Origin: a virus
Length of the DNA stretch: 64,000 nt
IMG/VR virus record: IMGVR_UViG_3300034072_000758
Coordinates: 186,001 to 250,000 of that record
Direction: 5' to 3' (one strand)
The position numbers and the translations under genes were made by a program. Within the stretch, counting starts at the first letter, position 1, and each line of letters begins with the position of its first letter. Below, one piece after another: positions 120-62,481 of this stretch. Under the pieces are notes generated by a model, which was not told where the DNA came from, searched no databases, and worked only from the letters and a program-made list of their open reading frames with translations.

Positions 120-228
120 AAATCACCCGATCAACATAAAGCGCATGGAAAGCATTAGCAGATGGTCCCGCGATGACGGCGCAACCGCTGATCTTCTTAT
201 AACCATCAACCCAACGTGTATCGATCAT
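103..228 (-). CDS. Small hypothetical protein (41 aa)
   Basis: A 41-codon frame starts MIDTRWVDGYKKISG and ends YVQGA. Its ATG overlaps the TGA of the upstream gene as ATGA, the coupling used throughout this operon, and that is the main argument for it being real. It fills an otherwise empty stretch between two coding regions. There is no recognisable domain and no TMF tail. It could be a chance frame. Confidence 0.42.
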   Translation of the reverse strand: MIDTRWVDGYKKISGCAVIAGPSANAFHALYVDRVIYVQGA

Positions 229-530
229 GCTGTCAGCGATAAGATCATCACCGCTTCCTCTTCGTCTGTGTTTATGTCAACGCGAGAAATAAACATCTTA
301 CCACTACCAAAATGAATGATCAATGTGGGTGTGGTGACTTTTATTATCTCATAATTACCTTTACCCTTTAAGCCAATAATGGTCGCAGTACAGAGATCGT
401 CGCCTATACGAAAATCGATAACTTCTCGTGTTTCTGGTGTCAGCATAATAAGTCCGTACCGTTCGCTCACGCGCCGAACAATTCCATTAGCAATAGGCCA
501 GTAAGCTGGGTTCGAGCGTTCAAGGATCAT
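225..530 (-). CDS. TMF paralog (101 aa)
   Basis: Member of the tail-motif family described in the summary. It starts MILERSNPAYWPIANG, with the N-terminal Trp, has a strand-rich middle with alternating hydrophobics (YGLIMLTP, TATIIGLKGKG), and ends DEEEAVMILSLTA. The start overlaps the upstream gene by 11 nt, so translation is probably coupled. Function unknown. Family membership rests on the C-terminal motif and the size and operon pattern. Confidence 0.8.
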   Translation of the reverse strand: MILERSNPAYWPIANGIVRRVSERYGLIMLTPETREVIDFRIGDDLCTATIIGLKGKGNYEIIKVTTPTLIIHFGSGKMFISRVDINTDEEEAVMILSLTA

Positions 531-885
531 GGCGAGTAATTACCGGCACAGCCTTATCGTCGGGCATATGAAGAGTGAATATCATCAGAGCTTCATCAAG
601 AGTATATTGCGAGTCACTAAAGTTCACTAAAAAATCGTTAGAAGATATTTCTTCCAGCAAAGAATACACCGAGATCGCTTCGCATTGTAACTCACGGAAA
701 CGAAGCTTGTTTTCCTTGATGGATACCCGCTCACAAACATAAATTATTTTATATTTACCAATGGTAAAATGAATTTGTGTGCCGGGATGCCAGCCCAATC
801 CAGTCAATGACAGATGGCTGATAGCGTTCGAAATGGTGTCGATGATTCGCGCACCAAGCTCTCTTGGGACTTCAATACCAATCAT
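520..885 (-). CDS. TMF paralog with C-terminal extension (121 aa)
   Basis: The tail motif DEALMIFTLHM is present but is followed by about 18 more residues (ending TRHDP), so it is internal, which is unusual for the family. The extension coincides with the overlap into the downstream gene, so a lost stop codon is a plausible origin. N-terminus MIGIEVPRELGARIID. The ATG overlaps the upstream stop as ATGA. Confidence 0.8.
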   Translation of the reverse strand: MIGIEVPRELGARIIDTISNAISHLSLTGLGWHPGTQIHFTIGKYKIIYVCERVSIKENKLRFRELQCEAISVYSLLEEISSNDFLVNFSDSQYTLDEALMIFTLHMPDDKAVPVITRHDP

Positions 886-1247
886 TCGACCACCATCAGT
901 ATAAGCATCATAGCATCATCCCCGTCATCATACGTGGGATGCCTCATTATAAAATATTCTGTAAAGGGGTCGATTCCAGCCGCTTTATTGATCACTCGTA
1001 TCAAGTGAATGTCACCATATTTTATTTCACGCAGAACCCAGCGACCGCGTATTGGTTCTTCTTTAAAGGGGTTATCATCTGGGAAAAATTGAAATGTCGA
1101 AATAAAACGTCCGGTTTCAAGCGTGACTTGCTGGCCATGTTCTTTCGAGCGCATCATGTCCATGCGCGCCTTACCCTCAATCGTAATGTTCTTCCGAACA
1201 TACGAAAGCACCATATCATGATATTCTTCTTCGATGTAGTAGGTCAT
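882..1247 (-). CDS. TMF paralog (121 aa)
   Basis: Begins MTYYIEEEYHDMVLSYVRKN and ends in the family tail DDGDDAMMLILMVVE. Central strands include WVLREIKYGDIHLIRVI. It overlaps both neighbours by 4 nt (ATGA). Function unknown. Confidence 0.82.
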   Translation of the reverse strand: MTYYIEEEYHDMVLSYVRKNITIEGKARMDMMRSKEHGQQVTLETGRFISTFQFFPDDNPFKEEPIRGRWVLREIKYGDIHLIRVINKAAGIDPFTEYFIMRHPTYDDGDDAMMLILMVVE

Positions 1248-1573
1248 TTATATTTCAAAAGGAATGTCGTAAACTCGGTATCAATTTCAGTGGTACGGTC
1301 TTTAGGGTTTCGATGACTCACCTTAACCGAACTGACCTTACTCTTATCCCACTCAAATTCGAAACGCAGGGCCTCATAGAGAACTTCTTTAATGAAACTA
1401 CCAACCGAAGTATTGATCATTGTGATTTCGATGTCGGGGTCAAAATATAGCGTCTCTTCCCCGCGATTCCACTTAGTAGCAACTTCGCTGTCATAATACA
1501 TTTTGTGGAAATAATTGTATATTTCTGCGCTCTTAGGCGAGTTATAACAAAGGGAAACGATAAACTCATTCAT
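1244..1573 (-). CDS. TMF paralog (109 aa)
   Basis: Starts MNEFIVSLCYNSPKSAEIYN and ends TEIDTEFTTFLLKYK, a weaker fit to the tail (acidic lead, then TTFLLKY). Both ends overlap neighbours by 4 nt. Strand-rich middle (TLYFDPDIEITMI). Function unknown; family assignment is less secure than for the flanking genes. Confidence 0.75.
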   Translation of the reverse strand: MNEFIVSLCYNSPKSAEIYNYFHKMYYDSEVATKWNRGEETLYFDPDIEITMINTSVGSFIKEVLYEALRFEFEWDKSKVSSVKVSHRNPKDRTTEIDTEFTTFLLKYK

Positions 1574-1905
1574 CGATAGTCACTCTCTATTTTATCACGC
1601 TTCGTCATTGGTTCTTTTTTCAAACTTACAGAGAAACCCAGATGTGGAAGAATGCTTGCGAAATTTCGGATGGTATCACCGTGAATGGTTACGCGACACT
1701 CATATTCCCCGGAGGCCAGCAAGGATGATGCCACCTTGGGAATAATAAAGGGGGGACATCCAAAACTAAACACCACACCAGCCGCATAGTCGGCCTGTTG
1801 CTTGGTTGGGTATCCTTCACCTATCCACTTAATGCGGATCGGAGTGCCATCTGGATAGCCGTAAGGTTTGGGTAAGCTTAACATGGTAAATTTCGTATCA
1901 CACAT
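1570..1905 (-). CDS. Hypothetical protein, first gene of operon (111 aa)
   Basis: This is the promoter-proximal gene of the leftmost minus-strand operon and differs from the TMF genes after it. It has no tail motif; it ends MTKRDKIESDYR. The segment GEYECRVTIHGDTIRNFASI followed by LPHLGFSVSLKKEP has an alpha/beta pattern reminiscent of the ribosomal L7/L12 C-terminal fold, but this is only a visual impression. No clear Shine-Dalgarno precedes the ATG at 1905. Confidence 0.7.
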   Translation of the reverse strand: MCDTKFTMLSLPKPYGYPDGTPIRIKWIGEGYPTKQQADYAAGVVFSFGCPPFIIPKVASSLLASGEYECRVTIHGDTIRNFASILPHLGFSVSLKKEPMTKRDKIESDYR

Positions 1906-2024
1906 TTAAGCCATTTAGAAGCCCCTACAGCGATATAAATGAATTTAGTCAACACTTATCGATTATCTTATTAACGCCCGTCCTGAGCCTTGTCTGGGGC
2001 GTAATGACGTGATATGGAAGAGTT
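1906..2024. promoter_or_regulatory. Divergent intergenic region
   Basis: It separates the leftward operon from the rightward TMF run. On the plus strand TTGTCT (1990-1995), a 17-nt spacer and TATGGA (2013-2018) place the predicted start near the ATG at 2025. A purine run GGAAGAG could instead act as ribosome site. An inverted repeat ACGCCC/GGGCGT (1974-1979, 1997-2002) lies upstream. No good minus-strand promoter is obvious. Confidence 0.4.
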
Positions 2025-2754: not shown

Positions 2755-3084
2755 ATGAAGTTTTTCAAAAACGATCACGAAAAGATTATGAGTATCTTGA
2801 ACGGACTTACGGCCAAGTACGAGCCGCAAGACGGTCATATCGTGATGAACGATAACTGGACCCTTTCAACGAAGACCTACGCGGACGGAACGGTCATTAT
2901 CTGGAAAAGACCAAAACCAAGCCGAAGACTCACATCATATACTCTAGCAATCCACCAAATTACGGTGGATGGTGTAAAGTTTCGCTTTGTCGGTAAAGCT
3001 GATCGTTTTCACTATATTGAAGGTCTGGGTCCGATGGTTAGTGATCGGATGATGGATTTGGTGTTATCCTCATGGTCCCAATAA
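2755..3084 (+). CDS. TMF paralog (109 aa)
   Basis: Begins MKFFKNDHEKIMSILNGLTA and ends MVSDRMMDLVLSSWSQ. The tail has Ser-Asp in place of the usual acidic cluster. Thr- and Arg-rich strands in the middle (TLAIHQITVDGVKFRFVGK). Separated from the gene before it by a short dyad-containing gap and overlapping the next by 13 nt. Confidence 0.82.
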   Translation: MKFFKNDHEKIMSILNGLTAKYEPQDGHIVMNDNWTLSTKTYADGTVIIWKRPKPSRRLTSYTLAIHQITVDGVKFRFVGKADRFHYIEGLGPMVSDRMMDLVLSSWSQ

Positions 3085-3416
3085 GACCCTTCCTGAATTT
3101 TCTGGCTGCGATCCCCGAATGGAAGTCGGATGGAATCAATATCGGCTATTCGGATGACCGAGTGTATGCCAGCTTAAACTTTACGGCTGGTCTTATGGTG
3201 TTCACCATTAAAGACCGAAACATCGGCCTCGAATATCGAGGCGTATATGAAGGTCATCGTCTCTCCGGGTCTACCGAAACGCCAAGTGGGTCGGTCCTCC
3301 GTCTACGAGATCGACAGGCTTACTTAATAAGAGAAGATAGCCTTGACGACGAACGTATGCGTACCGAGGGTTCGAGCGAAGACGCCATCATGGCTTTTGT
3401 GTTGAAGTATAGCTGA
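3072..3416 (+). CDS. TMF paralog (114 aa)
   Basis: Starts MVPIRPFLNFLAAIPEWKSD and ends GSSEDAIMAFVLKYS. Middle strands VYASLNFTAGLMVFTIKDRN. The start overlaps the previous gene by 13 nt and the stop overlaps the next ATG (TGATG). Function unknown. Confidence 0.85.
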   Translation: MVPIRPFLNFLAAIPEWKSDGINIGYSDDRVYASLNFTAGLMVFTIKDRNIGLEYRGVYEGHRLSGSTETPSGSVLRLRDRQAYLIREDSLDDERMRTEGSSEDAIMAFVLKYS

Positions 3417-4008: not shown

Positions 4009-4416
4009 ATGAACGCCCCCTCATTTGAACAGTTGCTTGCGCTTTACAATCAACTTCGGGAAGATCAATCTTTCACGAGACATAAGCAGCATTGGTTGTT
4101 CAATGAAAAGGGTCATGTTCGATCCAATCTCGCGGGTATTCCTTTCAAGCTTTCGTATCACATCTGTAGACTGGATGCTTACAATACCGATGTGACATTC
4201 ATCCTTGAAAGCCGCGCTCTCAAAATCGTATATAAGGCCGAACAAACTATCCTCACAATCTTGGAGAAATACGACCTCGGTACAAAAGGCTATCCGGTCG
4301 TCGTGGGGAGCGCGGAATACATTCTCAGGCTTCACCATCACCACGTTCGTCTAAAGCGTCGAAACGAGGGTGAAGACGAACTAATGCGACTTATTTTGTC
4401 TTGGCCAGAGGCGTAA
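4009..4416 (+). CDS. TMF paralog (135 aa)
   Basis: Starts MNAPSFEQLLALYNQLREDQ, an FEQLLALY version of the N-terminal helix, and ends EGEDELMRLILSWPEA. A His-rich strand LRLHHHHVRL lies near the C-terminus. No Shine-Dalgarno is visible in the 44-nt gap upstream. Function unknown. Confidence 0.85.
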   Translation: MNAPSFEQLLALYNQLREDQSFTRHKQHWLFNEKGHVRSNLAGIPFKLSYHICRLDAYNTDVTFILESRALKIVYKAEQTILTILEKYDLGTKGYPVVVGSAEYILRLHHHHVRLKRRNEGEDELMRLILSWPEA

Positions 4417-4417: not shown

Positions 4418-4822
4418 ATGTTTTGGAATGTTTCTGATTTACGTCGCCCAGAAGTATCAAGAATGATGGATCGTATCAACGATCTCATGATGGGTCAGTC
4501 TGCGGTGAAATCGCATAACATATGGACTAGGATCGAGACCTTGCGCGTCGATCTAAGTTTCGGCACCAAAACGAAACTTAAGATCACCGCGTGGCACCTG
4601 TCGCCAATATCCAGCCGGGTACGAGTGGATATTATCGGCCAGAACTTCAAGCTACGCTATGAAGGCTACGATGACCCAATCCTTATTCAAAAAATCGCTA
4701 AGACCGATTTCTATGAGATCAAAATAAAATTCAAGCATACTGTACTGTTTATAGAAGATTTTCTTTGGCTTCGTGGAACAAAAGGCGAAGACGAATATAT
4801 GACGTTCTTGTTGTCTCTATGA
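4418..4822 (+). CDS. TMF paralog (134 aa)
   Basis: Starts MFWNVSDLRRPEVSRMMDRI and ends KGEDEYMTFLLSL. AGAGG in the end of the upstream gene serves as ribosome site. Last gene of the rightward run; its 3' end overlaps the convergent gene at 4817 by 6 nt. No terminator hairpin separates them. Confidence 0.85.
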   Translation: MFWNVSDLRRPEVSRMMDRINDLMMGQSAVKSHNIWTRIETLRVDLSFGTKTKLKITAWHLSPISSRVRVDIIGQNFKLRYEGYDDPILIQKIAKTDFYEIKIKFKHTVLFIEDFLWLRGTKGEDEYMTFLLSL

Positions 4823-5116
4823 TAGAGCCAGAAGAAGCATCATGACTGCCTCTTCATGATCGTTATAACCATGATTTTCATCTATAAAGTATTTTAGTTT
4901 TACCCTCTCGACCACGATGTCTTTATATTGAATCCGATCAAGCTCCCAAATATAATCTTCCTCGCCGGGAACGAACCACACCATTTCCCGTGAGGCGACT
5001 ATGTGTCCACCATCTATTTCTTTATAGAAACGACGCACACGATAGTCCAGATTGGGTAAATGTCGCAGTATTGCGGACTGAACCTGTATACCTAAGATGC
5101 TGGGAAGGAGGAGCAT
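4817..5116 (-). CDS. TMF paralog (99 aa)
   Basis: The chosen ATG at 5116 shares its A with the upstream TGA (TGATG); an in-frame GTG at 5134 lies farther into the upstream gene and is less likely. Starts MLLLPSILGIQVQSAIL and ends NDHEEAVMMLLLALS. Strand-rich middle (IVASREMVWFVPGEEDYIW). Function unknown. Confidence 0.82.
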   Translation of the reverse strand: MLLLPSILGIQVQSAILRHLPNLDYRVRRFYKEIDGGHIVASREMVWFVPGEEDYIWELDRIQYKDIVVERVKLKYFIDENHGYNDHEEAVMMLLLALS

Positions 5117-5730
5117 CAGACAGACATCAGCCACAAACCATCATGGGCGATGTTCGAATCAAACACGGCGAACTCGGTGTCGGGCTTACCCACTTCGAAC
5201 CGGCTACCCAGATCGGCGATCAAATCCGCACACTCATCCAAGAAATCTTCATAGGTTCCTGTCGTAGCCCGCTGAGTGACCATGATCACGAATTTACCAT
5301 TGTCGTATTGCTTGTTGAGGTTCTGAGACAGATGTGCGTAATTCCGCTTGGCGATCTCTTTGATGACCTCAAAATCGGCTTCGTCTGCCAAGACATTGAT
5401 GTGAGTCTCGAAATATTGCCCTGAGAACATCATGAGGCCGTTTTCAGCGCTGGGGGCGCTCTCATACCAAGGAACCGTCTCGATCTTCTCCCTGACCACT
5501 CTGAGGCCCGCTGCGGCCAATGTGTCGGCAATCTCCTTCATGCGAGCGACCACTTGGTTGTAATCGCATGTCATCTTGGAAGAAGTCATCAAGTCCAGCA
5601 TCTTGAGACGACCGGAGATATTGATCAATTCGAGCGGCTTCACCCCAAGAGAATTAGACACGCTCTTGAACACTTCCAAGTCACTATGCGGATCGACGGT
5701 TACGTGAATTTCAAAAGGGTAGTCGGTCAT
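5116..5730 (-). CDS. Hypothetical protein with internal duplication (204 aa)
   Basis: Two related alpha/beta halves: PFEIHVTVDP near residue 5 and YFETHINVLADEADFEVI near residue 106, each a strand followed by a helix with conserved H. The second half continues KFVIMVTQRATTGTYEDF, EFAVFDSN and DGLW. This looks like a duplicated small-domain fold present in bacteria and phages, but I cannot name it confidently. It is not a TMF protein. It overlaps its neighbours by 1 and 4 nt. Confidence 0.82.
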   Translation of the reverse strand: MTDYPFEIHVTVDPHSDLEVFKSVSNSLGVKPLELINISGRLKMLDLMTSSKMTCDYNQVVARMKEIADTLAAAGLRVVREKIETVPWYESAPSAENGLMMFSGQYFETHINVLADEADFEVIKEIAKRNYAHLSQNLNKQYDNGKFVIMVTQRATTGTYEDFLDECADLIADLGSRFEVGKPDTEFAVFDSNIAHDGLWLMSV

Positions 5731-6203
5731 GTGGAAAGCCTTAAGCGAATCATGAAGTCATCATATTTCTTTTGATCAGTGGTGAGATAATCAAAAGAAC
5801 TGTAGTTCTCGGCAACGTGAACGAAATGTTCATCGTTATGAACAACGACAGTCTCGTGAAAATCACAATACTCATCTTCGAAATCCGCCGCAAGAACCTT
5901 ATTACCAATCCACCCGTTTAACAGTCCGGGGATTTTGATACCCAAGACAAACGCGCCATAATAATTTGGTATAGTATTTTTGATACGATGATCGATATAG
6001 GCTAAGAAGTAAATCTTCTTGTTACCAAACGCCAGTCGTCTACGTTCAAACTTGGTGTAGGAACTCGACGGTATATTAAAGAGTTTCTTATGACATGCGC
6101 GCGCTGCCAGTCCGTCACTACTGTAAACTGTTCTAAAGTTGACCCGTTCAGCTTGTTCATAAAGCTTGAGCCAGAAGCGCATGTCTAATAATACATGGGT
6201 CAT
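5727..6203 (-). CDS. TMF paralog (158 aa)
   Basis: Longer than average. MTHVLLDMRFWLKLYEQAER carries the clear N-terminal FW helix, and the end is TDQKKYDDFMIRLRLST. Middle strands KIYFLAYIDHRI and YGAFVLGIKIPG. Overlaps both neighbours by 4 nt. Function unknown. Confidence 0.85.
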   Translation of the reverse strand: MTHVLLDMRFWLKLYEQAERVNFRTVYSSDGLAARACHKKLFNIPSSSYTKFERRRLAFGNKKIYFLAYIDHRIKNTIPNYYGAFVLGIKIPGLLNGWIGNKVLAADFEDEYCDFHETVVVHNDEHFVHVAENYSSFDYLTTDQKKYDDFMIRLRLST

Positions 6204-6601
6204 GGTAAATCCAACATAAGTTTCATCAGAAAGTCGTCAGCGTCTTCTTCGCAACGGACGCGCATCTGAATGATGGTGGGGAGCTTGCCTTCTTGCGGTT
6301 CTTCATAATCAAATACAATACTGAACGTATCGCACTTGACCCACTCTGGATAGAAAATCCACTGGTCGCGGACTAACCGACGATGGCGGATGCGAACTTG
6401 AATAGTCTCGTAATGGTAAGACGGAAGCTCGTAAGAAATGTGGAATGGAGCCGCACTAGCCAATCCCGCATTGAGTTGATTTAAGTCGTCATCTATCTTG
6501 ATCGTTCGGGTTACTCCCGCGCGCACCGCCTCAATCGCCTCTTTATCCGAGACGATCTCCCCTTGGGGTTTTGTGAGTTTTTTCCGAAAAAGGTCTATCA
6601 A
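6200..6601 (-). CDS. TMF paralog (133 aa)
   Basis: Starts MIDLFRKKLTKPQGEIVSDK and ends CEEDADDFLMKLMLDLP, close to the family consensus. Middle strands ETIQVRIRHRRLV and FSIVFDYEEP. Coupled by ATGA overlaps to genes on both sides. Confidence 0.85.
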   Translation of the reverse strand: MIDLFRKKLTKPQGEIVSDKEAIEAVRAGVTRTIKIDDDLNQLNAGLASAAPFHISYELPSYHYETIQVRIRHRRLVRDQWIFYPEWVKCDTFSIVFDYEEPQEGKLPTIIQMRVRCEEDADDFLMKLMLDLP

Positions 6602-6918
6602 GATGTAGCCAGTACAATTCTCATGAGAAAGTCGTCAAAGTCCGCGCGGGTTGACTTACCATGATACATGAAAGACTTGAGCTTGGCACGAATATTTTTC
6701 GCATCGGTTGCGCCACAGACAGCAAAGTTTACCGATACCGATAAATCCATTTTGAAGATACCGGGGGCATGAAAGCTAACGGTATTTGAACGCGAGATAA
6801 TATTAAGAACGATACCGTTCTTTCTAACTACCCTACGTTCTAAATCTCTAATAGAATCAATCTGTTCAGACTTATGAAACAAGTCATACCAGAATTTAGG
6901 ATCGATCTCTTTTTTCAT
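6598..6918 (-). CDS. TMF paralog (106 aa)
   Basis: Starts MKKEIDPKFWYDLFHKSEQI, one of the clearest PKFWxxLF N-termini, and ends ADFDDFLMRIVLATS. Middle strands GIVLNIISRSNTVSFH. The upstream mini-frame's stop overlaps its ATG. Confidence 0.87.
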   Translation of the reverse strand: MKKEIDPKFWYDLFHKSEQIDSIRDLERRVVRKNGIVLNIISRSNTVSFHAPGIFKMDLSVSVNFAVCGATDAKNIRAKLKSFMYHGKSTRADFDDFLMRIVLATS

Positions 6919-6990: not shown

Positions 6991-7338
6991 TCATTTGGCC
7001 ACCATCATAAGAAAAAGCATCAGATGCTTCTCAACATCAACCATCTTGGTTGGACCAATGAGTTTGATCGCAAACTTGTCCATCGAATCTGGTTGACCGT
7101 CCCGAACATAGAACGAGACCTTCATTTTCGTTGGGAAGTGGAAAACACGCTTCCCCGTCTTCTTGGAATGAAAAACGTTCACCCATTCCGTATTTTGTTT
7201 GAACTTTAAACGGATCAGCGATTTCGATTCTGGCACACCATTCGTATAGAACTGCCAACGACCAGCATATTGCGGTCTTGTTGTAGGACGCGAATTGTCA
7301 AACACCATCCGCCAGAATTTTGGGTCGTGTAAGATCAT
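6991..7338 (-). CDS. TMF paralog (115 aa)
   Basis: Starts MILHDPKFWRMVFDNSRPTT, the same PKFW helix as the gene at 6598, and ends DVEKHLMLFLMMVAK. Basic middle strands KTGKRVFHFPTKMKVSFYV. Overlaps the upstream 324-aa gene by 4 nt. Confidence 0.86.
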   Translation of the reverse strand: MILHDPKFWRMVFDNSRPTTRPQYAGRWQFYTNGVPESKSLIRLKFKQNTEWVNVFHSKKTGKRVFHFPTKMKVSFYVRDGQPDSMDKFAIKLIGPTKMVDVEKHLMLFLMMVAK

Positions 7339-8680: not shown

Positions 8681-9039
8681 AGGAGTTGATGCGCGATTTC
8701 GGTGAGCGGGAGAGTTCCTTCGAACTGGACCTTCTTCCCGGCCTTTGTGTGAGTCACGGTAACGATATTGTCACCCAGACCCTTGAGCAACACGTCGAGA
8801 ATGGTGTTCTCACCATTCTCGACATCGCTCTGGTATGGGCGGACATGGGCTTCACCCACATGAATCATTTCTTGTTCCCATACAAAAAGGAGAAACATAC
8901 GATACGCACCAAGCTTCTGACCGTCCCACTTACGCAGAATAGCGAACTGTACGTCATCTTCATCGAAGACTTCGGTGCTGATCAACGCATAGACCGTATC
9001 GTCCGTCTCGCTGCGTTTATATGCCTGATAGACTTTCAT
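8677..9039 (-). CDS. Hypothetical protein (120 aa)
   Basis: Starts MKVYQAYKRSETDDTVYALI. The ATG at 9039 overlaps the KptA stop as ATGA and has GGGAGG upstream, so it is preferred over a longer frame running into KptA. Predicted beta-rich (AYRMFLLFVWEQEMIHV). Conservation unknown. Confidence 0.8.
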   Translation of the reverse strand: MKVYQAYKRSETDDTVYALISTEVFDEDDVQFAILRKWDGQKLGAYRMFLLFVWEQEMIHVGEAHVRPYQSDVENGENTILDVLLKGLGDNIVTVTHTKAGKKVQFEGTLPLTEIAHQLL

Positions 9040-9608
9040 TGGGGCCTCCCGAACAGAAAATACTTTGTCGGTACGGTGTCTGTCAACCAAACACCATTCT
9101 CGGACAAATAAAATTTATACCCATCCTTGGACATGTGGTAGGCGTCCACGATGATGATATGAAGATTGCCGCCTTGACGCTTACCGACTTTCTCCGCCGT
9201 TTCACGATCCTTGGACAGGTGAACGTGCTGACGAGACATCTTGGAGATCGCCCCGGATGCCAGTATCTTACTTAAATTGTCCGTGGACGTTCCGTGGTAA
9301 AGATAGGCCGGGGGTTCTTTCTCTTCAAGCTTGAGATCGACTTCGATGGAATGCCCTTGGTTGGCGCGCACTCGAATACCTTGCTCGACCCGTTCATAAG
9401 CGAACCTTTGCTTATCGTTCGTTTCTATCACAGAAAGAATATCGTTCACCGTGATACTAGTATCGACTTTAGAGCGCACGGCCTTGAGAAGGTCTGACAT
9501 ACTGACCCAACCGTTTTCATCCAAGGTGATGCCACCCGCCGCCGGATCGTGGCGCAGGATCAGTGACATGAACTTGGAGACTTTTGTTTTTTGTTTTTCG
9601 GTCATCAT
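9036..9608 (-). CDS. kptA: RNA 2'-phosphotransferase (Tpt1/KptA family)
   Basis: A full-length 190-aa match to the Tpt1/KptA family, which removes an internal 2'-phosphate from RNA splice junctions by NAD+-dependent transfer, giving ADP-ribose 1'',2''-cyclic phosphate. The N-terminal module shows SKFMSLILRHDP and LDENGWVSMSDLL. The C-terminal ADP-ribosyltransferase-like module shows YLYHGTS, SRQHVHLS, VDAYHMSKDGYKFY and NGVWLT with VP. All blocks expected of an active enzyme seem present. In a phage it could act with RNA repair or remove 2'-phosphates made by host defence; that is inference. Overlaps the downstream gene by 4 nt. Confidence 0.95.
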   Translation of the reverse strand: MMTEKQKTKVSKFMSLILRHDPAAGGITLDENGWVSMSDLLKAVRSKVDTSITVNDILSVIETNDKQRFAYERVEQGIRVRANQGHSIEVDLKLEEKEPPAYLYHGTSTDNLSKILASGAISKMSRQHVHLSKDRETAEKVGKRQGGNLHIIIVDAYHMSKDGYKFYLSENGVWLTDTVPTKYFLFGRPQ

Positions 9609-12912: not shown

Positions 12913-12919
12913 TAGACCA

Positions 12920-12947
12920 ATTATAGACAGAAAACCAATATATACAA
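12920..12947 (-). promoter_or_regulatory. Sigma70-like promoter
   Basis: Minus strand TTGTAT (12947-12942), a 16-nt spacer and a perfect TATAAT (12925-12920). The start codon begins 7 nt after the -10 box, so the mRNA should start at or next to the ATG. Confidence 0.65.
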
Positions 12948-12950
12948 GCA

Positions 12951-34808: not shown

Positions 34809-34844
34809 ATGATTTTCCAATAGCATTTCAGACAGTTGATAAAC

Positions 34845-49547: not shown

Positions 49548-49554
49548 CACACAC

Positions 49555-50595: not shown

Positions 50596-50900
50596 ATCAC
50601 TTGTAGATATATGGCCATCAGATAATTGTCCAGAGTTTCCTCAGACAATCCGGGGTAAGTCGCATATACAAAATCTAAGACACTCCCATTAGCATGGACG
50701 GACAAACCAATATGGAAAACCCCCGGCACCATAAAATCGTATCGGACGGAATTTGGGAAACTTGAAGTGGCTCCACAAATACCAATTTTCTTTGATTCTT
50801 CATTAACAACGAACGGATAATACACCAGATTGAAGCCGTTACCTTTGGACTTAAAAAGGTTTACCCATATTTCTGGTTTGAACTTGCTTTCGAAATTCAT
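50592..50900 (-). CDS. TMF paralog (102 aa)
   Basis: Starts MNFESKFKPEIWVNLFKSKG (IWVNLF helix) and ends SEETLDNYLMAIYLQVI. An isolated member between unrelated genes, upstream of the M23 gene in the same transcript. Confidence 0.86.
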   Translation of the reverse strand: MNFESKFKPEIWVNLFKSKGNGFNLVYYPFVVNEESKKIGICGATSSFPNSVRYDFMVPGVFHIGLSVHANGSVLDFVYATYPGLSEETLDNYLMAIYLQVI

Positions 50901-51659: not shown

Positions 51660-51742
51660 TGGTGGGCTTGGTCGGACTCGAACCGACACTCCGAAGAAAC
51701 AGATTTTGAGTCTGTCGCGTATACCAATTTCGCCACAAGCCC
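51660..51742 (-). tRNA. tRNA-Leu (anticodon CAA)
   Basis: An 83-nt tRNA with acceptor GGGCTTG/CAAGCCC, encoded CCA end and T arm GTCGGTTCGAGTCCGAC, and an anticodon loop CTCAAAA giving CAA (reads UUG). The extra arm is short for a leucine tRNA. It has its own promoter and terminator. It may help decode phage Leu codons or replace a host tRNA cleaved in defence. Confidence 0.94.
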
Positions 51743-52299: not shown

Positions 52300-52689
52300 A
52301 TGATAAGTCGTGATTTTGTGTATTGGCTTCAAGGATTCTTCGAGATTTCAGAAGCCACAGGTGATGTCGATGCCGTCACCCTAACTGCCGCTCAAGCAGA
52401 CATGGTGCGTAAGCATCTGTCGCTGGTTGTGGAATATGAAACCAACCCCACCCTACCATTCGTTCAGTGGTTGATCGGTTTCATGGACGCCGCAAAAACC
52501 CCCGACAAGGCACAGGTCGAGACAATCCGAGCGAAGCTCAACGATGTTTTCAAGCATGTGATCGACCCGCCGATGGGCGATGCCAAGAAGCAAAAGAAGC
52601 TGAATGAAATTCATTCGCCGCATCCATTCCAAGGCCCACAAAAGGGTCAGATCGATACCAATCCGGGGGATTTTGTAGTACGCTGCTGA
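52300..52689 (+). CDS. Conserved phage protein (129 aa)
   Basis: The opening MISRDFVYWLQGFFEISEAT matches a small protein I know from many phages (F-x-Y-W-L-Q-G-F-F-E). A second similar helix occurs at FVQWLIGFMDAA, so the domain is duplicated. The polar C-terminus includes SPHPFQGPQKG. Start at 52300 has AGGAG. Function unknown. Confidence 0.85.
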   Translation: MISRDFVYWLQGFFEISEATGDVDAVTLTAAQADMVRKHLSLVVEYETNPTLPFVQWLIGFMDAAKTPDKAQVETIRAKLNDVFKHVIDPPMGDAKKQKKLNEIHSPHPFQGPQKGQIDTNPGDFVVRC

Positions 52690-53048
52690 TGATTGTTCCT
52701 GTCGAAATGATTGTTAAGGCGCTTCTCACTTTGAAGCCGTATATACAGGTGGCGGATTTTCCGCCGCCGAATATGCGTTTTAATAATGCTGGCTTACTGG
52801 AAATCGATCCGACTTGTACTACTATGCGAACAGAGTTAGGTAAGATAGAGGTCGGGTTACGCTATAGTAGCGTCCAAAGCTTTTGGTTCATAGAAGAGAT
52901 AATCTTTTCTGACTATCGTATAAAGCAATCATCGCCATCCCATCATTTTTCTGGTACGGATTTTGTTATTGAATGTGAAACGGGTGAACCCGATCTCGAA
53001 GAAGCATTCTTAAAACTGTATCTTCTATTACCAGCATTGGAACAATAA
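52689..53048 (+). CDS. TMF paralog (119 aa)
   Basis: Starts MIVPVEMIVKALLTLKPYIQ and ends EPDLEEAFLKLYLLLPALEQ, with six residues beyond the core. Overlaps neighbours by 1 nt. Confidence 0.84.
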   Translation: MIVPVEMIVKALLTLKPYIQVADFPPPNMRFNNAGLLEIDPTCTTMRTELGKIEVGLRYSSVQSFWFIEEIIFSDYRIKQSSPSHHFSGTDFVIECETGEPDLEEAFLKLYLLLPALEQ

Positions 53049-55368: not shown

Positions 55369-55621
55369 GATATTCTTTCAAATCATCGGGGAACTTTGTT
55401 ACCGGGCATTCCATGTCCTTCCCCATAACATATATACCGTCTACTTTGTAAGCATAACCCACGAAACCGTCACCTTCGACCGACGCTAAAGCTGAGTAAT
55501 CATTATATTTCCAATAATAGGAAACCTCGTTCTCGGCCACGTTCGGGCTAATGTGTGGGCGCAACTTCAATCCCCGCATCGTGCGTTCGAACAAAAAAGC
55601 ATCCATTTCAACCGGGGTCAT
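55349..55621 (-). CDS. Hypothetical protein (90 aa)
   Basis: Starts MTPVEMDAFLFERTMRGLKL and ends FPDDLKEYLSKIPY. The end faintly resembles a degraded TMF tail (DDLKEYLSK). Small beta-rich middle (YAYKVDGIYVMGKDM). Coupled by ATGA to the TMF gene upstream. Confidence 0.72.
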   Translation of the reverse strand: MTPVEMDAFLFERTMRGLKLRPHISPNVAENEVSYYWKYNDYSALASVEGDGFVGYAYKVDGIYVMGKDMECPVTKFPDDLKEYLSKIPY

Positions 55622-55959
55622 CTTGCCTTACCTTCGGCTATCAAGGTGGCAATCATCAAGAACTCTTCCAATGACCCCGGTTCTTGCAAAGGACTTTCCG
55701 GGTTAGACCATCTTTGATCGAGGATAGTATATGTAGGATTCGGATTGGTGGTTTCAAAGATACGCATGCATACCTTCAAATGTAGATTACGATCACAAAA
55801 GAAATCCACGACATTATCTTCGATTCTTTGCCCCATACTTTGACAAAAGAATTTGATTAACCATTCATGTCCGGCGTATTCAAGAGTGAAATCCGCATTT
55901 ATAGATGCGAGCTTCCAATATCGTTGAAAGATGCCATTTAACAAATCTGGATTTATCAT
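55618..55959 (-). CDS. TMF paralog (113 aa)
   Basis: Starts MINPDLLNGIFQRYWKLASI and ends GSLEEFLMIATLIAEGKAR, with five extra residues. Strands LHLKVCMRIFETTNPNPTY. Coupled to both neighbours by 4-nt overlaps. Confidence 0.84.
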   Translation of the reverse strand: MINPDLLNGIFQRYWKLASINADFTLEYAGHEWLIKFFCQSMGQRIEDNVVDFFCDRNLHLKVCMRIFETTNPNPTYTILDQRWSNPESPLQEPGSLEEFLMIATLIAEGKAR

Positions 55960-56378
55960 TGGAGTAATGCCAGTTTAAATATATAGTCTTCGGCTTTTTC
56001 TTGATCATATATAGCGTAAATATTATTATTGCCGCCCGCCGCCCGTATATCTTCGTTGAAGTGCGTGTGATCATAATCGTCATGTCTCAAAATAAATTTG
56101 TCCTCGGTCGATATTCTGTTTTTCAATCTGAATATGCGTATATGTAAAGCAAATATACCGGGTACATAGAAGCTAAGTCCGGTTCCGCTACCTTTTTCTG
56201 GACAAGAGATATAGGACACTCGTATCCTTAACGCTTTCAAAGGATCATCTTCGTTCTCTATTACAAAATGAAGTTCGGCTCCGCGTCCATACTTATCTCC
56301 CCCGGTACGATGGGAAAATTTGGCGCTTTTAACCAATCGCATCCAGAACATCGCATCATGGAAAATAGGAAGGGTCAT
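55956..56378 (-). CDS. TMF paralog (140 aa)
   Basis: Start at ATG 56378 (MTLPIFHDAMFWMRLVKSAK, an FW helix), chosen over longer frames in the promoter region of the divergent gene. Ends DQEKAEDYIFKLALLQ. Strands FALHIRIFRLKNRIST. Confidence 0.85.
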   Translation of the reverse strand: MTLPIFHDAMFWMRLVKSAKFSHRTGGDKYGRGAELHFVIENEDDPLKALRIRVSYISCPEKGSGTGLSFYVPGIFALHIRIFRLKNRISTEDKFILRHDDYDHTHFNEDIRAAGGNNNIYAIYDQEKAEDYIFKLALLQ

Positions 56379-56387
56379 ATTGACAGC

Positions 56388-56415
56388 TTGACAACATATG
56401 GATTTATGGTAGATT
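56388..56415 (+). promoter_or_regulatory. Sigma70-like promoter
   Basis: TTGACA (56388-56393), a 16-nt spacer and TAGATT (56410-56415), with another TTGACA 8 nt upstream (56380). Serves the DUF6011-like gene, which has GGAAGG as ribosome site. Confidence 0.6.
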
Positions 56416-56451
56416 GATCCTATCACAAAATATCACGGAAGGTAAATTGAA

Positions 56452-57746: not shown

Positions 57747-57786
57747 GAAATAACAAGGTGCCTCTGTGGAGGCTCTGGAAGGCGAT

Positions 57787-58107
57787 ATGAGCTATACCTA
57801 TCCAACTCTCAAGCGCATGTTCGAGCTATATACTGACAATAAGGCTGGTTTAGCTTACCAACGCCTTAGTCCAAACATTCACATCTTGCGTTTGATAACT
57901 GATGATTTCTTGCTGACCTATACCGGTCACTACTTCAATAATGTCAAGATGATGGTCACTGCCGAATGTGTTATTCAGCGGGCGGAATGTATACACATCG
58001 ATAACGAACAGATTTATCTTTTTTACGATCCGCCAACCTTCCGAGTGCTCACTACCCAAGAAGAAGCTGAACACACTCTTGTAGAATGGATTATGAAGAA
58101 CCTATGA
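57787..58107 (+). CDS. TMF paralog (106 aa)
   Basis: Start at ATG 57787 (MSYTYPTLKRMFELYTDNKA) with GGAAGG upstream. Ends TTQEEAEHTLVEWIMKNL. Its MFELYTDNK helix is nearly the same as MFELYATDK in the next gene, so this is a tandem duplicate pair. Confidence 0.85.
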   Translation: MSYTYPTLKRMFELYTDNKAGLAYQRLSPNIHILRLITDDFLLTYTGHYFNNVKMMVTAECVIQRAECIHIDNEQIYLFYDPPTFRVLTTQEEAEHTLVEWIMKNL

Positions 58108-58472
58108 CTATGAGACCCGAAGACTATCTGGCGAACAAGTGTAATCTTCCCACCATACAAAAAATGTTCGAGCTATACGCTACAGACAAGCGCATGTTTG
58201 ACTTCGAGCATCATGGGGATGATGACAGTGGGTTTTTCAAATTGGTGTTCTCTGTCAATGGAACGTGTTCTCTGATCTATACGGCTCACAGAATCCGTCT
58301 GATCCAGTATATGCAATCCGTATTCGGTAAGAAAACCGAAGGGGTTTCTATAGTAATCGGTAAAAACGTTCATTACGTTTTTCCAGCGCCGCCAAAAATA
58401 GAAATAGATTCTCTTCACACTATCGAACAGGCCGAAGAAGCACTAATGCTTTGGTTATTGACCCTCAACTAG
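58104..58472 (+). CDS. TMF paralog (122 aa)
   Basis: Start at ATG 58104 (MTMRPEDYLANKCNLPTIQK), overlapping the upstream TGA as ATGA. Ends TIEQAEEALMLWLLTLN. Second copy of the tandem pair. Converges with the gene at 58465, overlapping by 8 nt. Confidence 0.85.
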   Translation: MTMRPEDYLANKCNLPTIQKMFELYATDKRMFDFEHHGDDDSGFFKLVFSVNGTCSLIYTAHRIRLIQYMQSVFGKKTEGVSIVIGKNVHYVFPAPPKIEIDSLHTIEQAEEALMLWLLTLN

Positions 58473-58827
58473 ATTGAAGGGTTAATAACATGATTTCTTC
58501 GTCTATTTTTTCCCGGTCGGCGTCATCTAAGTAAGTGATATAAACCAAGACTTCTTTTTCCAAATCTTGTTTGAAAAAATATTCATTGTTTTTACCAACA
58601 AATAAGCAACAATGCTCAATATACTTAAGAGTATTAGTATTCTTTAGTCTGGCCATGTAGTGTTGATTATCGGACAGTCTTGGGATTTTATATAGTAGAG
58701 TATAGCCATTACCCATATATATCATTCGTACAACTTTTTCATCTATGGTGGGTTCATATATTCGACTATTTTTATTCGCCATAACCCAAGCGACAGACGG
58801 ATACCCTTTGATACGCTTCTTCATCAA
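58465..58827 (-). CDS. TMF paralog (120 aa)
   Basis: Starts MMKKRIKGYPSVAWVMANKN (Trp helix) and ends DREKIDEEIMLLTLQSS. AT-rich. Coupled by ATGA to the Pth2 gene upstream. Confidence 0.84.
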   Translation of the reverse strand: MMKKRIKGYPSVAWVMANKNSRIYEPTIDEKVVRMIYMGNGYTLLYKIPRLSDNQHYMARLKNTNTLKYIEHCCLFVGKNNEYFFKQDLEKEVLVYITYLDDADREKIDEEIMLLTLQSS

Positions 58828-59225
58828 TACAGACCTAAGCCGCCCGTGAATTGATCAACCTTCTCACGGGTATCGGGACCGATGGCGATGGCCGTGTTGG
58901 TAGGAACCCCACCGAACTCAGTAAGGCCCTTGTCGGTGATCAGAGAGGCCAGCAAGCCAGCTTCTTTGGCCCGACGATAGATGTCCAGCATTTCCTCTTC
59001 GGAATTGACGGTCACCGTGATCTTAGTGAAGGCTCCCAAGAGCCAATCTTTCATGCGCTCGTCTAATTCCAAATGAAAATACACCGAGCCGTCCTCACGA
59101 GTGATATACTCACCAGCGCCGAGGATCGCGCCCATAGAAGCGTGAGCACCTTGAGAAATTTCTTTACCCCGGCGCATTTTGAGGTCTTTGCGGATAACGA
59201 TGACTTGTTTAAGCGGCGACGACAT
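58824..59225 (-). CDS. Peptidyl-tRNA hydrolase, Pth2 family
   Basis: Full-length (133 aa) Pth2-type enzyme: KQVIVIRKDLKMRRGKEISQ, GAHASM, FTKITVTVNSEEEMLDIYRR, then ASLITDKGLTEFGG and AIAIGPDTREKVDQFTGGLG with LY. Releases peptides from stalled peptidyl-tRNA. The catalytic His/Asp region looks kept (QGAHASM, ITDKGLT). With GltX, KptA and tRNA-Leu it adds to a tRNA-related set. Overlaps its neighbours by 4 and 17 nt. Confidence 0.9.
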   Translation of the reverse strand: MSSPLKQVIVIRKDLKMRRGKEISQGAHASMGAILGAGEYITREDGSVYFHLELDERMKDWLLGAFTKITVTVNSEEEMLDIYRRAKEAGLLASLITDKGLTEFGGVPTNTAIAIGPDTREKVDQFTGGLGLY

Positions 59226-59439
59226 AATCGACCTCGACTGGAATTTGAACCAATAGGTAGGCTTTTAGGATTGTATTGTATGCTAACTCAGCATCTTCCT
59301 TGAGAGTGCTACTGTGGATCAGGTTATCATTCACGAATGTCTCATAGACTTTCGATTCGATACCCGTGATACAATAGAAATCTGTGTTGACCACGGAGCG
59401 GACAACGCGCTTTATCTTGGCAATCATAATGGTACTCAA
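59209..59439 (-). CDS. Hypothetical protein (76 aa)
   Basis: Probably starts at TTG 59439, overlapping the upstream TGA, or at ATG 59427 (MIAKIKRVVRSVVNTDFYCI). A single small alpha/beta domain with helix LKEDAELAYNTILKAYLLVQ. Between the DUF2807-like and Pth2 genes, co-transcribed with both. No family recognised. Confidence 0.72.
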   Translation of the reverse strand: MSTIMIAKIKRVVRSVVNTDFYCITGIESKVYETFVNDNLIHSSTLKEDAELAYNTILKAYLLVQIPVEVDYVVAA

Positions 59440-60110
59440 TGGATCGTTAGATCGCCCGACCCGGAGCTTTTCGTGTCGGTCTTGAGCGGCCCACCGTACA
59501 CATCAACGTCACCGGAACCTGACGTGGTGCCACTGAATGACATAGAAGCGTAGCAAGAAATGTCGCCAGAGCCGTGAGACTTAAGAAGAACATGTGCCGC
59601 CTTTAATTCTGAGAGTGATAAATCGCCCGAACCGGACTTTTCGACGTAGAGGGAATTGGTCACACCTTTCAGGGAAATATCCCCCGAACCATCGGCGCGA
59701 ATAGTCAGGTCTTCGTTAGCTACATAGCCGCGAATGTCCCCGGAACCACTTCTAGTGATCTTGCTGAGCGTGTTGCTTTTGATGACAACTTTGATGCCAC
59801 GGTTGGACGTGAACGAACCGTTAATCGACAGAGTGAGAACGCCCATGCTGTTGTATTTTACTTCGATCAGTTCCGCCAAATTCTCTTCAACAGAAAGGAC
59901 CAAAGAGTTTTTAACCGAATGATCGATTTCCAACTGAACGTCGATAATACCTTGAACGTTGATTTCTTTAAGCTTGACGGTGATGATATGTGTCAGGTCT
60001 TTGGAAATAACGTTTCCATTTCCAACAATCCCGAAGCCGTTTCCTACGCCGCCACCAACGAAGTTTCCATTTATGAAAACCCCCGACCCGCTGAAAAACT
60101 TGCTGAACAT
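59436..60110 (-). CDS. DUF2807-like beta-helix protein (224 aa)
   Basis: A repetitive beta protein with GSGDI/GSGDV/GSGDL at the turns (ITRSGSGDIRGYVANED, ADGSGDISLKG, KSGSGDLSLSELK, GSGDVDVYGG), typical of the DUF2807 (GIN) domain found in bacterial secreted proteins. A Gly-rich head FINGNFVGGGVGNGFGIVGN precedes it. No signal peptide, so it is cytosolic or virion-associated rather than an autotransporter. Function unknown; rare in phages. Confidence 0.82.
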   Translation of the reverse strand: MFSKFFSGSGVFINGNFVGGGVGNGFGIVGNGNVISKDLTHIITVKLKEINVQGIIDVQLEIDHSVKNSLVLSVEENLAELIEVKYNSMGVLTLSINGSFTSNRGIKVVIKSNTLSKITRSGSGDIRGYVANEDLTIRADGSGDISLKGVTNSLYVEKSGSGDLSLSELKAAHVLLKSHGSGDISCYASMSFSGTTSGSGDVDVYGGPLKTDTKSSGSGDLTIH

Positions 60111-60167: not shown

Positions 60168-60196
60168 TTGATTAAGAATGTTCTTTATAGTATTGT
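60168..60196 (+). promoter_or_regulatory. Sigma70-like promoter (leaderless type)
   Basis: TTGATT (60168-60173), a 17-nt spacer and TATTGT (60191-60196). ATG 60202 follows after 5 nt and has no Shine-Dalgarno. Confidence 0.6.
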
Positions 60197-60201
60197 TAAG
60201 C

Positions 60202-60717
60202 ATGATTACTAAAAAACGCATGAGTGAAATGTATGAATTGAACCGAACACTGGCTACGTCAATAATGTTCGGTGTTAATGATTTAGAAGATTACTTAGAA
60301 AAGACCGAATTGAGCCTCGAAGCTCAACTATCTATTGTCACTTTCGAGCTTCAATATGTAACGAATTTAAAAAACGTTCATGAAGATGTATTGCGTTATG
60401 TAAACTATGCTTTCCAACGCATGTGTAAAGATGACGTTAAAGCCGGAAATATTAAAAATATTTGGGACTGCGCCTGTTCAATGTTTTGTTACACGGGCAA
60501 CTTTATGGAGGTTCTTTATCCAGATACGCAAAAAATATTACGGGATCACCTCATGAATAATATTGAGCATTTTAAGGAAGAGGAAAAGGCATATACAAAT
60601 AGCTTCGGTACAGTGGGCCTCGATCCCAGCCGCAAATCGGTGATACAAAAAATAGCGAACAATATCTTCGACAATGATGAAGATCGTGTCAAATTCGTGT
60701 TGCTGGTTTCTTCTTAA
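60202..60717 (+). CDS. Hypothetical helical protein (171 aa)
   Basis: Start at ATG 60202 (MITKKRMSEMYELNRTLATS), set by the promoter position; an ATG at 60178 lies inside the promoter. Entirely helical (SLEAQLSIVTFELQYVTNLK), with Cys-containing IWDCACSMFCYTGN. It ends NDEDRVKFVLLVSS, slightly TMF-like. Its stop overlaps the convergent ART-like gene by 4 nt. Confidence 0.78.
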   Translation: MITKKRMSEMYELNRTLATSIMFGVNDLEDYLEKTELSLEAQLSIVTFELQYVTNLKNVHEDVLRYVNYAFQRMCKDDVKAGNIKNIWDCACSMFCYTGNFMEVLYPDTQKILRDHLMNNIEHFKEEEKAYTNSFGTVGLDPSRKSVIQKIANNIFDNDEDRVKFVLLVSS

Positions 60718-61421
60718 TAACGCTTCTTCAATAGCTTGGCAACTTCAAAGAAATTCGAGCCGTCTTTGACAAGCTTCTGTGAATATTTGGCCGGGATCGC
60801 CCACATTTCACGTGGGATAAGATTTCCCCCACCGTGAGCCACATGTGCTCCCAGATCGATGAATGCCAGCTTTTCGCGGTCGTTCATATCTTTGAGGATG
60901 GCTTTACCGGCTCTGGCCCAAGATGAATATTCCCCGTCCCTGACTTTACGAAGTGTACTGGCCGACAGGTTATATCCCGCACGTCGCGTTACTTCTTTGA
61001 CATCCGGGGAGTTGATGATTTCAGGATACTTCTCCTGAACATATTTCTGATCACGATTGAGACAATGGGCGACAAACTCACCTACGCTGTCTTCATCTGG
61101 TTGTATGTCTTGAAGGTCCGAACCGTCGAATACAAAGACATAGCCGATATTCTTTTCCCAGCCCTTTGGAACGGTTGAGCCGAGGAAATCCCCACCAATG
61201 GCGTAGACCGTAGCGTAGCCTACGTTTTGGGCCAGATAGACGCGCCCCGCAACCGGACGCATGTGGGGCTTACTTTCACCGTACTTGACTTCGGTAGCCG
61301 CAGGATCAAGACCCTTCTTCCAGATGGCAAGGGCGGCTTCTTTCGATCCTGTTCCGTGATAATAGCGGACGCCCTTGTGAATATCTAAAGGGGCGGCTTC
61401 CAAGAGTTCTTCATAACGCAT
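60714..61421 (-). CDS. ADP-ribosyltransferase-like virion protein (235 aa)
   Basis: ART/KptA-like module: GVRYYHGTGSKEAALAIWKK, GLDPAA, RPVAGRVYLAQNVGYATVYA and IGYVFVFDGSDLQDIQPDED, the last acidic stretch being where the catalytic Glu would be. The opening MRYEELLEAAP carries L-L-E and resembles MRYSELTES of the 686-aa protein. An AATAAATA box lies 5 nt before its ATG. Predicted to be packaged and injected. Confidence 0.8.
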   Translation of the reverse strand: MRYEELLEAAPLDIHKGVRYYHGTGSKEAALAIWKKGLDPAATEVKYGESKPHMRPVAGRVYLAQNVGYATVYAIGGDFLGSTVPKGWEKNIGYVFVFDGSDLQDIQPDEDSVGEFVAHCLNRDQKYVQEKYPEIINSPDVKEVTRRAGYNLSASTLRKVRDGEYSSWARAGKAILKDMNDREKLAFIDLGAHVAHGGGNLIPREMWAIPAKYSQKLVKDGSNFFEVAKLLKKRY

Positions 61422-61434: not shown

Positions 61435-61756
61435 TACAGGTGTTGGGAACCTGTTCGGTGTTGGTCCCGCTGCCCGATACCATTGAGAGATATTGACAGT
61501 TGGTCACATTGTCAGTAGTCAGGTAAACCACAAAGGGTCCATTGCCGGTTAGTTGCTTCACGGTGACCCGCGTTGTTTCCTGCGATGTGAATACGGCATC
61601 GGCCATAACTTCGGTCTTTTCTTCCGCCGTCATTTCGCGGGCGGGTTCTTCGATGCGTTTACACCCAACCAGCACTGTGCCAACCGCTACCAAAATAGCG
61701 ATTACTGGAAGCGAATGTATCACGCCGATCAGAACGTTTTCTTGAAGCTTGGACAT
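61430..61756 (-). CDS. Predicted lipoprotein (108 aa)
   Basis: Hydrophobic signal ending in a lipobox (ILVAVGTVLVGC, Cys near residue 32), then an acidic/polar mature region. Its C-terminus (TNCQYLSMVSGSGTN, VPNTCK) matches that of the next gene (NGCQTYLFVRG, VPGTCK), so the two are paralogs with a conserved Cys pair. Could be an outer-membrane or periplasmic exclusion lipoprotein. Confidence 0.83.
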   Translation of the reverse strand: MSKLQENVLIGVIHSLPVIAILVAVGTVLVGCKRIEEPAREMTAEEKTEVMADAVFTSQETTRVTVKQLTGNGPFVVYLTTDNVTNCQYLSMVSGSGTNTEQVPNTCK

Positions 61757-61761
61757 GCGCG

Positions 61762-62049
61762 TTACTCCTTACAAGTGCCGGGAACAGGCTGGGACGTGAT
61801 GCCTTCTCCCCGCACGAAAAGATAGGTCTGGCAACCGTTGGTCTTATCGGTGGAGATAAAGGCGCGGATTGTGAAACCGTCCTCATACTCGCCGATTTGT
61901 GCGATGACGGCTCGATTGCTGACCGGGGTGGATGCCGCTTCGGCGACGGCGACGTTCCCAACACGGGCCGAGTGAACTGGTGCTTCGGCGGGCTTCGAAC
62001 AACCGATTAGACCGATAGCGAGAATGAGTAGTGCGGTGGTACGAAACAT
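61762..62049 (-). CDS. Predicted lipoprotein (95 aa)
   Basis: Signal MFRTTALLILAIGLIGC with lipobox Cys at 17; short Ala/Ser-rich linker; the mature C-terminal domain shares NGCQTYLFVRGEG and PVPGTCKE with the paralog downstream. GGAG precedes the ATG. The pair is transcribed leftward ahead of the ART-like gene. Confidence 0.83.
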   Translation of the reverse strand: MFRTTALLILAIGLIGCSKPAEAPVHSARVGNVAVAEAASTPVSNRAVIAQIGEYEDGFTIRAFISTDKTNGCQTYLFVRGEGITSQPVPGTCKE

Positions 62050-62068
62050 GATGTGGTCTCCTTTTAAA

Positions 62069-62098
62069 TTGACTGTTCAGTAACAAAGCAAGTATCGT
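62069..62098 (+). promoter_or_regulatory. Sigma70-like promoter (leaderless type)
   Basis: TTGACT (62069-62074), an 18-nt spacer and TATCGT (62093-62098), 5 nt before the ATG at 62104. No Shine-Dalgarno. Confidence 0.6.
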
Positions 62099-62103
62099 GC
62101 CGT

Positions 62104-62481
62104 ATGGAAACTTTTACGCTTGACCTTCTTATCAAACTTATAACGAATGCTCCGAAGAAGTATCGCCGTTCACAACACAATGCTTACACGGCGGAGTTTG
62201 TTTGCGGGACAAAAATTTCCTTTGAGTACAAAGCAAGCTTAAAGTACATGGACTTTCGTTGCTACAAAGCGAGATCATTCAGTATACGTGGTTCCGTGAG
62301 CGCCAACACTAACCCACCACATTCAAATTATTCACAGTCTTTGAGCTTGGTTGGCTACCGCACATTTCCACTTACCCTACATTTTAGACCCTCTTCGTAT
62401 TACTGTCACCTGATCGTCAATGGCAATCAAGAGAAATCCGAAGAAGACTTAGTTAAGTTCCTGTTGGTCAACTGTGGGTAG
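62104..62481 (+). CDS. TMF paralog (125 aa)
   Basis: Starts METFTLDLLIKLITNAPKKY and ends QEKSEEDLVKFLLVNCG. A single-gene unit on the plus strand with its own promoter, unlike most members that sit in operons. Strands FRCYKARSFSIRGSVSA. Confidence 0.84.
   Translation: METFTLDLLIKLITNAPKKYRRSQHNAYTAEFVCGTKISFEYKASLKYMDFRCYKARSFSIRGSVSANTNPPHSNYSQSLSLVGYRTFPLTLHFRPSSYYCHLIVNGNQEKSEEDLVKFLLVNCG

Follow-up and report, generated by a model that had tools for sequence, protein, structure and literature searches.

About half of the real genes in a 64,000-nucleotide stretch of a jumbo phage genome belong to a single family of small, strongly diverged proteins. The stretch, henceforth the window, spans positions 186001-250000 of the 516,805-bp virus record IMGVR_UViG_3300034072_000758. 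It contains 53 open reading frames (ORFs) with a conserved tail at or near the C-terminus, encoding proteins of 101-182 aa (median 125). We interpret the family as a lineage-specific, diversifying repertoire of roughly 95 homologous proteins that arose by tandem duplication and may each bind a different host target. This is the explanation that we favor, held tentatively and at somewhat less than even confidence.

A first pass over all window ORFs yielded 55 tail candidates, picked by eye on the tail. Two of them (11225-12079 and 12073-12951) were dropped as longer and apparently all-helical, which left 53. Under leave-one-out scoring, 36 of the 55 first-pass candidates exceeded the 95th percentile of shuffled proteins and 29 the 99th. 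Because members had first been chosen by eye on the tail, we rediscovered the motif without labels on 276 ORFs. It was found in 109 C-termini, and the corresponding figures for motifs trained on mid-protein and N-terminal sequence were 53 and 68. A fixed tail model matched 96 C-termini (some of them its own training set), one middle and no N-terminus. The shared C-terminal tail described in the initial annotation is thus real, as it exceeds interior, N-terminal and shuffled controls.

We read ORF by ORF the window and ~108 kb of other stretches; the remainder of the record was covered by profile search only. Beyond the window, 43 of the 161 ORFs read carry the tail, where ~3 are expected by chance at a threshold set to the 98th percentile of interior stretches. 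Most of them lie between 151 and 186 kb or between 264 and 272 kb; single cases occur near 399, 437 and 458 kb. The first pass of a profile built from window members alone recovered 14 additional ORFs (E<0.01), so that members elsewhere in the genome were found by the profile search proposed initially, and iteration settled at ~78. By comparison, blastp among sampled ORFs of this genome joins at most two at a time. Since the profile, run over the entire record, found only two weak matches in the unread parts (~24.7 and ~324.5 kb), the 53 members in the window and 43 outside it give the total of roughly 95. The earlier estimate of ~55 paralogs at 225-62481 therefore holds for the window, but the family extends well outside that range.

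The tail is under selection as protein. Third positions of tail codons are near random (1.6-2.0 bits of entropy, maximum 2), and first and second positions drop to 0.4-1.2 bits at conserved sites. Tail score is also independent of coupling, with a mean of 10.3 for genes with a coupled downstream gene and 11.2 for genes without one. Together these results indicate selection on the protein and not on the DNA, in agreement with the purifying pressure on the tail proposed in the initial annotation. On the codon-position entropy we rejected an overlapping DNA signal as the reason why the tail is conserved. Leucine codon use did not differ significantly between tail and body (P=0.09). The consensus of 96 tails reads acidic, acidic, x, L/I, M/T, x, L/F, x, L (78% Leu). 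The two acidic positions are acidic in ~75% of these tails, with column information of 2.2 and 1.8 bits, and the final three residues rank with the least conserved positions. Over the full length, and leaving aside the start Met, column information is highest for the Trp of the N-terminal helix (3.9 bits), followed by a Phe in the middle of the body (2.7 bits) and a tail Leu (2.5 bits). This confirms the N-terminal Trp helix noted earlier. It contradicts the view of the tail as the one conserved part, as the Trp and the Phe are as strongly conserved.

Tandem duplication is visible in the bodies. When the tails are cut away, neighboring copies on one strand have a median alignment score of 27.5, compared with 25.0 for other pairs (P=0.0004), and the 99% level of shuffled sequences is passed by 15% of adjacent pairs and by 2.6% of all pairs. 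This agrees with an old, repeatedly duplicated family. The bodies had been called almost unalignable. Alignment is indeed poor overall, but some tandem neighbors align along their whole length (24334-24729 with 24722-25225; 57766-58107 with 58086-58472). AlphaFold models of two members (28744-29109 and 6598-6918) have the same predicted architecture of a helix, five strands and a helix, and in both the tail is the C-terminal helix. At the moderate confidence of these models, the bodies do not appear to be unrelated, which bears on the structural check suggested at the outset.

The 53 members, 18 on the plus and 35 on the minus strand, are grouped in 26 runs. In 15 of the 27 consecutive same-strand pairs the overlap is exactly 4 or 1 bases, consistent with the coupled runs first described. 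A Shine-Dalgarno-like motif lies within 20 bases of 2 of the 53 called family starts, compared with 9% at random positions. By eye, such motifs are rare at the first genes of runs too, and several larger neighbors have them. T4-type late promoter octamers occur in the window at chance level (3 found, 2.5 expected), and TTGACA boxes are present in some intergenic gaps. Accessory genes adjoin the array, including Tpt1/KptA, PTH2, ADP-ribosyltransferases and an EcoRV-like nuclease.

The record, that of a T4-related jumbo phage, encodes a T4-type gp23 capsid protein and a terminase. By capsid protein, its nearest named relatives are Sinorhizobium phage Phosso (78%) and Agrobacterium phage Atu_ph07 (67%), and the host is therefore likely an alphaproteobacterium. 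The family profile had no match in 35 gp23-related phage records, some with capsid proteins ~80% identical; the second batch of these 35 consisted mostly of fragments and lacked a separate positive control. IMG/VR scans with two single members and tblastn with two members in a phage collection returned nothing credible. The only match, to Achromobacter phage JWF at E 0.3, falls within a 378-codon gene and was taken as chance. When neighboring genes were used as bait, no close sister of the phage turned up.

Other small-protein families are expanded in the relatives. In its strict form, the window-family tail is present in 25 of 248 small ORFs in this phage; every other genome has 0-1. For the D-x-x-P-F motif the count is 38 of 487 small ORFs in Atu_ph07 and again 0-1 in each of the others. 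The FKLxW tail is found in 37 of 477 small ORFs of genome G002, 26 of 412 of Phosso and 8 of 342 of genome G005, and in 0-1 elsewhere. Reversed-sequence controls for these three counts gave at most 1, and both the FKLxW and the P-F motifs emerged from unseeded motif discovery. Genome G003 has neither the FKLxW nor the D-x-x-P-F expansion. The array stretches are L145-L147 and L150 in Atu_ph07, L175-L191 in G002, L153-L172 in Phosso and L214-L225 in G005. Iterated profiles gave ~115 members in Atu_ph07 and 88 in G002, counts that may include drift, so that the strict motif counts are the safe part. Our comparisons do not support the window family as a branch of the FKLxW family: the FKLxW model matches 10 tails here compared with 5 middles and 8 N-termini, and profile-profile comparison of the two families gave a probability <1%.

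We propose that one ancestral scaffold was duplicated repeatedly in tandem, keeping its core and losing most other similarity. Each member would consist of an N-terminal helix with the Trp, a five-strand antiparallel meander with the Phe, and the tail as C-terminal helix. Both helices and the Phe-bearing strand probably pack into a constant core, which would leave the strand surfaces and loops free to vary. The members would most likely be accessory binders of different host targets, such as defence proteins and enzymes, and the array a repertoire diversifying in an arms race with the host. The family is missing from the near relatives examined, several of which carry other arrays, and this fits a replaceable repertoire against a changing opponent, most simply the host. 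The chance-level late promoter octamers, the TTGACA boxes, the accessory neighbors and the arrays of relatives were also counted in favor. An anti-defence or host-takeover role, raised in the initial annotation, is a plausible hypothesis.

Several observations weigh against this interpretation. A tail-free body profile is a weak separator (median 2.75 bits for members, -0.05 for other ORFs, 1.2 for reversed and 0.8 for shuffled sequences). The two AlphaFold models had overlapping input alignments and middling confidence, with a predicted local distance difference test score (pLDDT) of 74 and 73, respectively. Neither has a significant structural neighbor (best PDB E 0.23, best BFVD E 0.09). 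Searches of Pfam, PHROGs and PADLOC returned only isolated marginal matches and no domain of known function; as first stated, no described family matches the members. The copies are saturated, which puts positive selection beyond measurement.

The initial annotation had suggested that one common phage or host partner reads every C-terminus as an address tag, with the bodies binding targets. The motif does lie at, or a few residues from, the C-terminus in nearly all members, and the small proteins of G002 and Phosso likewise carry a conserved C-terminal motif. Yet a tag needs an extra partner, whereas a tail that is the last helix of the predicted fold, with mostly hydrophobic conserved positions, would be conserved through its role in the fold core alone. 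The equal conservation of the Trp and the Phe and the variability of the last three residues also argue against a tag. A common partner is thus not required, and we consider one unlikely; the conserved acidic pair keeps the proposal in play. The conserved terminal helices, together with ~95 coexisting copies in coupled runs, would also permit assembly of the members into hetero-oligomers, such as a phage-specific scaffold or compartment whose order is set by variable surfaces. This seems rather improbable, as the sequences show no sign of assembly, the family is missing from relatives that have the capsid gene in common, and the bodies differ far more than is usual for subunits of one structure.

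The opponents could instead be rivals of the phage, with the members guarding the infected cell through superinfection exclusion or immunity to phage or bacterial toxins, one per opponent. Immunity repertoires, too, typically take the form of large arrays of small, diverging proteins, and a subset of members has a hydrophobic N-terminus. We judge this quite improbable: neither Pfam nor PADLOC matches any member to an immunity or exclusion family, and PADLOC, a defence-side library, gave one marginal match, in one member. Extreme divergence and the lack of relatives might also suggest duplication debris, with copies arising and decaying without function. This is already largely refuted and very improbable, because ~95 intact reading frames keep the tail at the protein level with saturated third codon positions, which needs selection.

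Most jumbo-phage genes are ORFans. Many ORFans of this phage are one family masked by divergence. Other arrays lie concealed in Atu_ph07, Phosso and G002, a hint that lineage-specific repertoires make up part of the dark matter of jumbo phages. We found no array of such size reported in the open-access papers searched. Conceivably, though on balance doubtfully, Atu_ph07-like jumbo phages each keep a replaceable mega-family of dozens to about a hundred rapidly diverging small proteins, different per lineage, as anti-defence binders, with an undescribed fold in the present case, as a phage counterpart of diversified effector arsenals. If the members are host-directed, they would amount to a large natural library of binders to host proteins, and the purpose of giant phage genomes would become directly testable.

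The members and the translation-related genes of the window are listed in the table below; translation and RNA-repair genes (Tpt1/KptA, tRNA synthetase, a cytidylyltransferase-like enzyme, PTH2 and tRNA-Leu) are interspersed in the array. The EcoRV-like restriction endonuclease (35456-36181, minus strand; PF09233, E 2e-50) lies beside ADP-ribosyltransferase genes, with ADP-ribosyltransferase domains in 36225-36839 and 33888-34826. On the plus strand, 47002-47856 and 47914-48564 resemble by eye a DNA methyltransferase and nuclease pair, and Pfam has no match for either. A 249-aa protein (29926-30675, minus strand) aligns over 42 residues with the central part of gp20, the T4 portal protein (E 1e-13), and may be a portal fragment or displaced piece. 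The product of 59436-60110 (minus strand) has a DUF2807 head GIN (adhesin-like) domain. Many otherwise different proteins start with MRYxEL..E, MRLFEL or MSNWYRNLINLLEG, resembling T4 capsid-targeting peptides (window 36225-36839, 37536-39596 and 60714-61421; stretch L014 6156-15573; Atu_ph07 L135), and are possibly injected virion effectors. A second, apparently all-helical protein set is found at 11225-12951 (minus strand) and 60178-60717 (plus strand) in the window and at L014 16961-18917. Several of its members have N-P-x-x-x-V repeats, and the ends of some mimic the main-family tail.

Table. Family members and translation-related genes in the window, with window coordinates (pTM, predicted template modeling score)
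Feature	Position	Strand	Evidence
Member	225-530	-	C-terminal tail DEEEAVMILSLTA
Member, tail 13 aa before end	520-885	-	Tail; profile E 2e-9
Probable member	1244-1573	-	Tail; profile E 0.09
Four-member run	2025-2396, 2387-2716, 2755-3084, 3072-3416	+	Tails; profile E 2e-4, 0.007, 0.6, 6e-5
Two members	4009-4416, 4418-4822	+	Profile E 1e-9 each
Probable member	4817-5134	-	Strong tail, 15.1 bits; profile E 0.3
Three-member run	5727-6203, 6200-6601, 6598-6918	-	Profile E 2e-13, 1.5e-6, 2e-13
Second AlphaFold query	6598-6918	-	Model pLDDT 72.9, pTM 0.53
Member	6991-7338	-	Profile E 2e-9
RNA 2'-phosphotransferase (Tpt1/KptA)	9036-9608		
Member	12951-13346	-	Profile E 4e-9; tail 18.3 bits
Probable member	17053-17412	-	Tail
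Three-member run	18104-18481, 18474-18938, 18929-19282 (degenerate tail)	-	Profile E 1e-11, 1e-8, 1.5
Two members	19707-20153, 20150-20695	-	Profile E 9e-10, 8e-8
Glu/Gln-type tRNA synthetase	20976-22646		
Four-member run	23409-23840, 23837-24337, 24334-24729, 24722-25225	-	Profile E 1e-12 to 2e-8
Clear tandem duplicates	24334-24729, 24722-25225	-	Body alignment score 78
Three-member run	25496-25900, 25900-26277, 26274-26600	-	Profile E 1e-11, 2e-4, 1e-5
Cytidylyltransferase-like enzyme	26597-27604		
Four-member run	27641-28009, 28002-28337, 28355-28747, 28744-29109	-	Profile E 2e-14 to 5e-6
First AlphaFold query	28744-29109	-	Model pLDDT 74.4, pTM 0.63
Two members	31405-31941, 31938-32453	+	Profile E 6e-5, 2e-7
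Three-member run	32794-33195, 33189-33572, 33569-33904	+	Profile E 2e-6, 9e-13, 9e-11
Four-member run	40620-41102, 41099-41476, 41473-41856, 41853-42173	-	Profile E 4e-10, 9e-7, 3e-4 for three
Member by tail and position only	41099-41476	-	
Two members	45766-46275 (hydrophobic N-terminus), 46272-46796	+	Profile E 2.5e-4, 1.3e-4
Subgroup ending FVxG[DN]xxxFExD	45766-46275, 46272-46796	+	Subgroup alignment
Probable member	48564-49019	+	Tail
Member	49002-49550	-	Profile E 1.5e-9
Member	50592-50900	-	Profile E 1.8e-5
tRNA-Leu(caa)	51660-51742		
Member	52689-53048	+	Profile E 4e-4
Two members	55618-55959 (tail only), 55956-56426	-	Profile E 0.66, 4.5e-13
Tandem pair	57766-58107, 58086-58472	+	Profile E 1.6e-5, 4e-11; body alignment score 59
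Member	58465-58827	-	Profile E 1.4e-10; tail 21 bits
Peptidyl-tRNA hydrolase PTH2	58824-59225		
Member	62104-62481	+	Profile E 1.8e-9

We compared the family with known systems. T4 internal proteins, known examples of which act on host defences, likewise combine a conserved address-like end with a variable body. In those proteins the conservation resides in an N-terminal peptide that is cleaved inside the capsid, whereas in the window family the N-terminal helix, mid-body and C-terminal helix are conserved together. No capsid-targeting peptide was seen by eye at the family N-termini, and N-terminal motif discovery yielded the Trp-helix motif instead. In Bacillus phage G, ~35 zinc-ribbon copies were called unprecedented in an overview of 224 jumbo phages (PMC7824862). 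There too, a single family of small proteins has undergone lineage-specific expansion in the genome of a jumbo phage. The window family differs in having ~95 copies, a composition unlike that of zinc ribbons, with 1.5 Cys per protein on average, and a different predicted fold without a name; in the library search, no zinc-ribbon family matched more than one member. The Atu_ph07 paper reports 390 ORFans, and a word search of its main text finds no mention of paralogs or duplication (PMC6102473). Like the window family, the D-x-x-P-F family of Atu_ph07 comprises ~100-aa proteins in long coupled arrays with dozens of copies, but its motif is mid-protein, not terminal, and it has no profile similarity to the window family. 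One D-x-x-P-F member matches phrog_19845, which has no assigned function. Although window-family tails are not recognized by the FKLxW model or profile, the FKLxW proteins of G002, Phosso and G005 are likewise many small diverging genes in related jumbo phages, and they share with the window family a conserved C-terminal motif, preceded by acidic residues, in a hydrophobic, Leu-containing, helix-like end.

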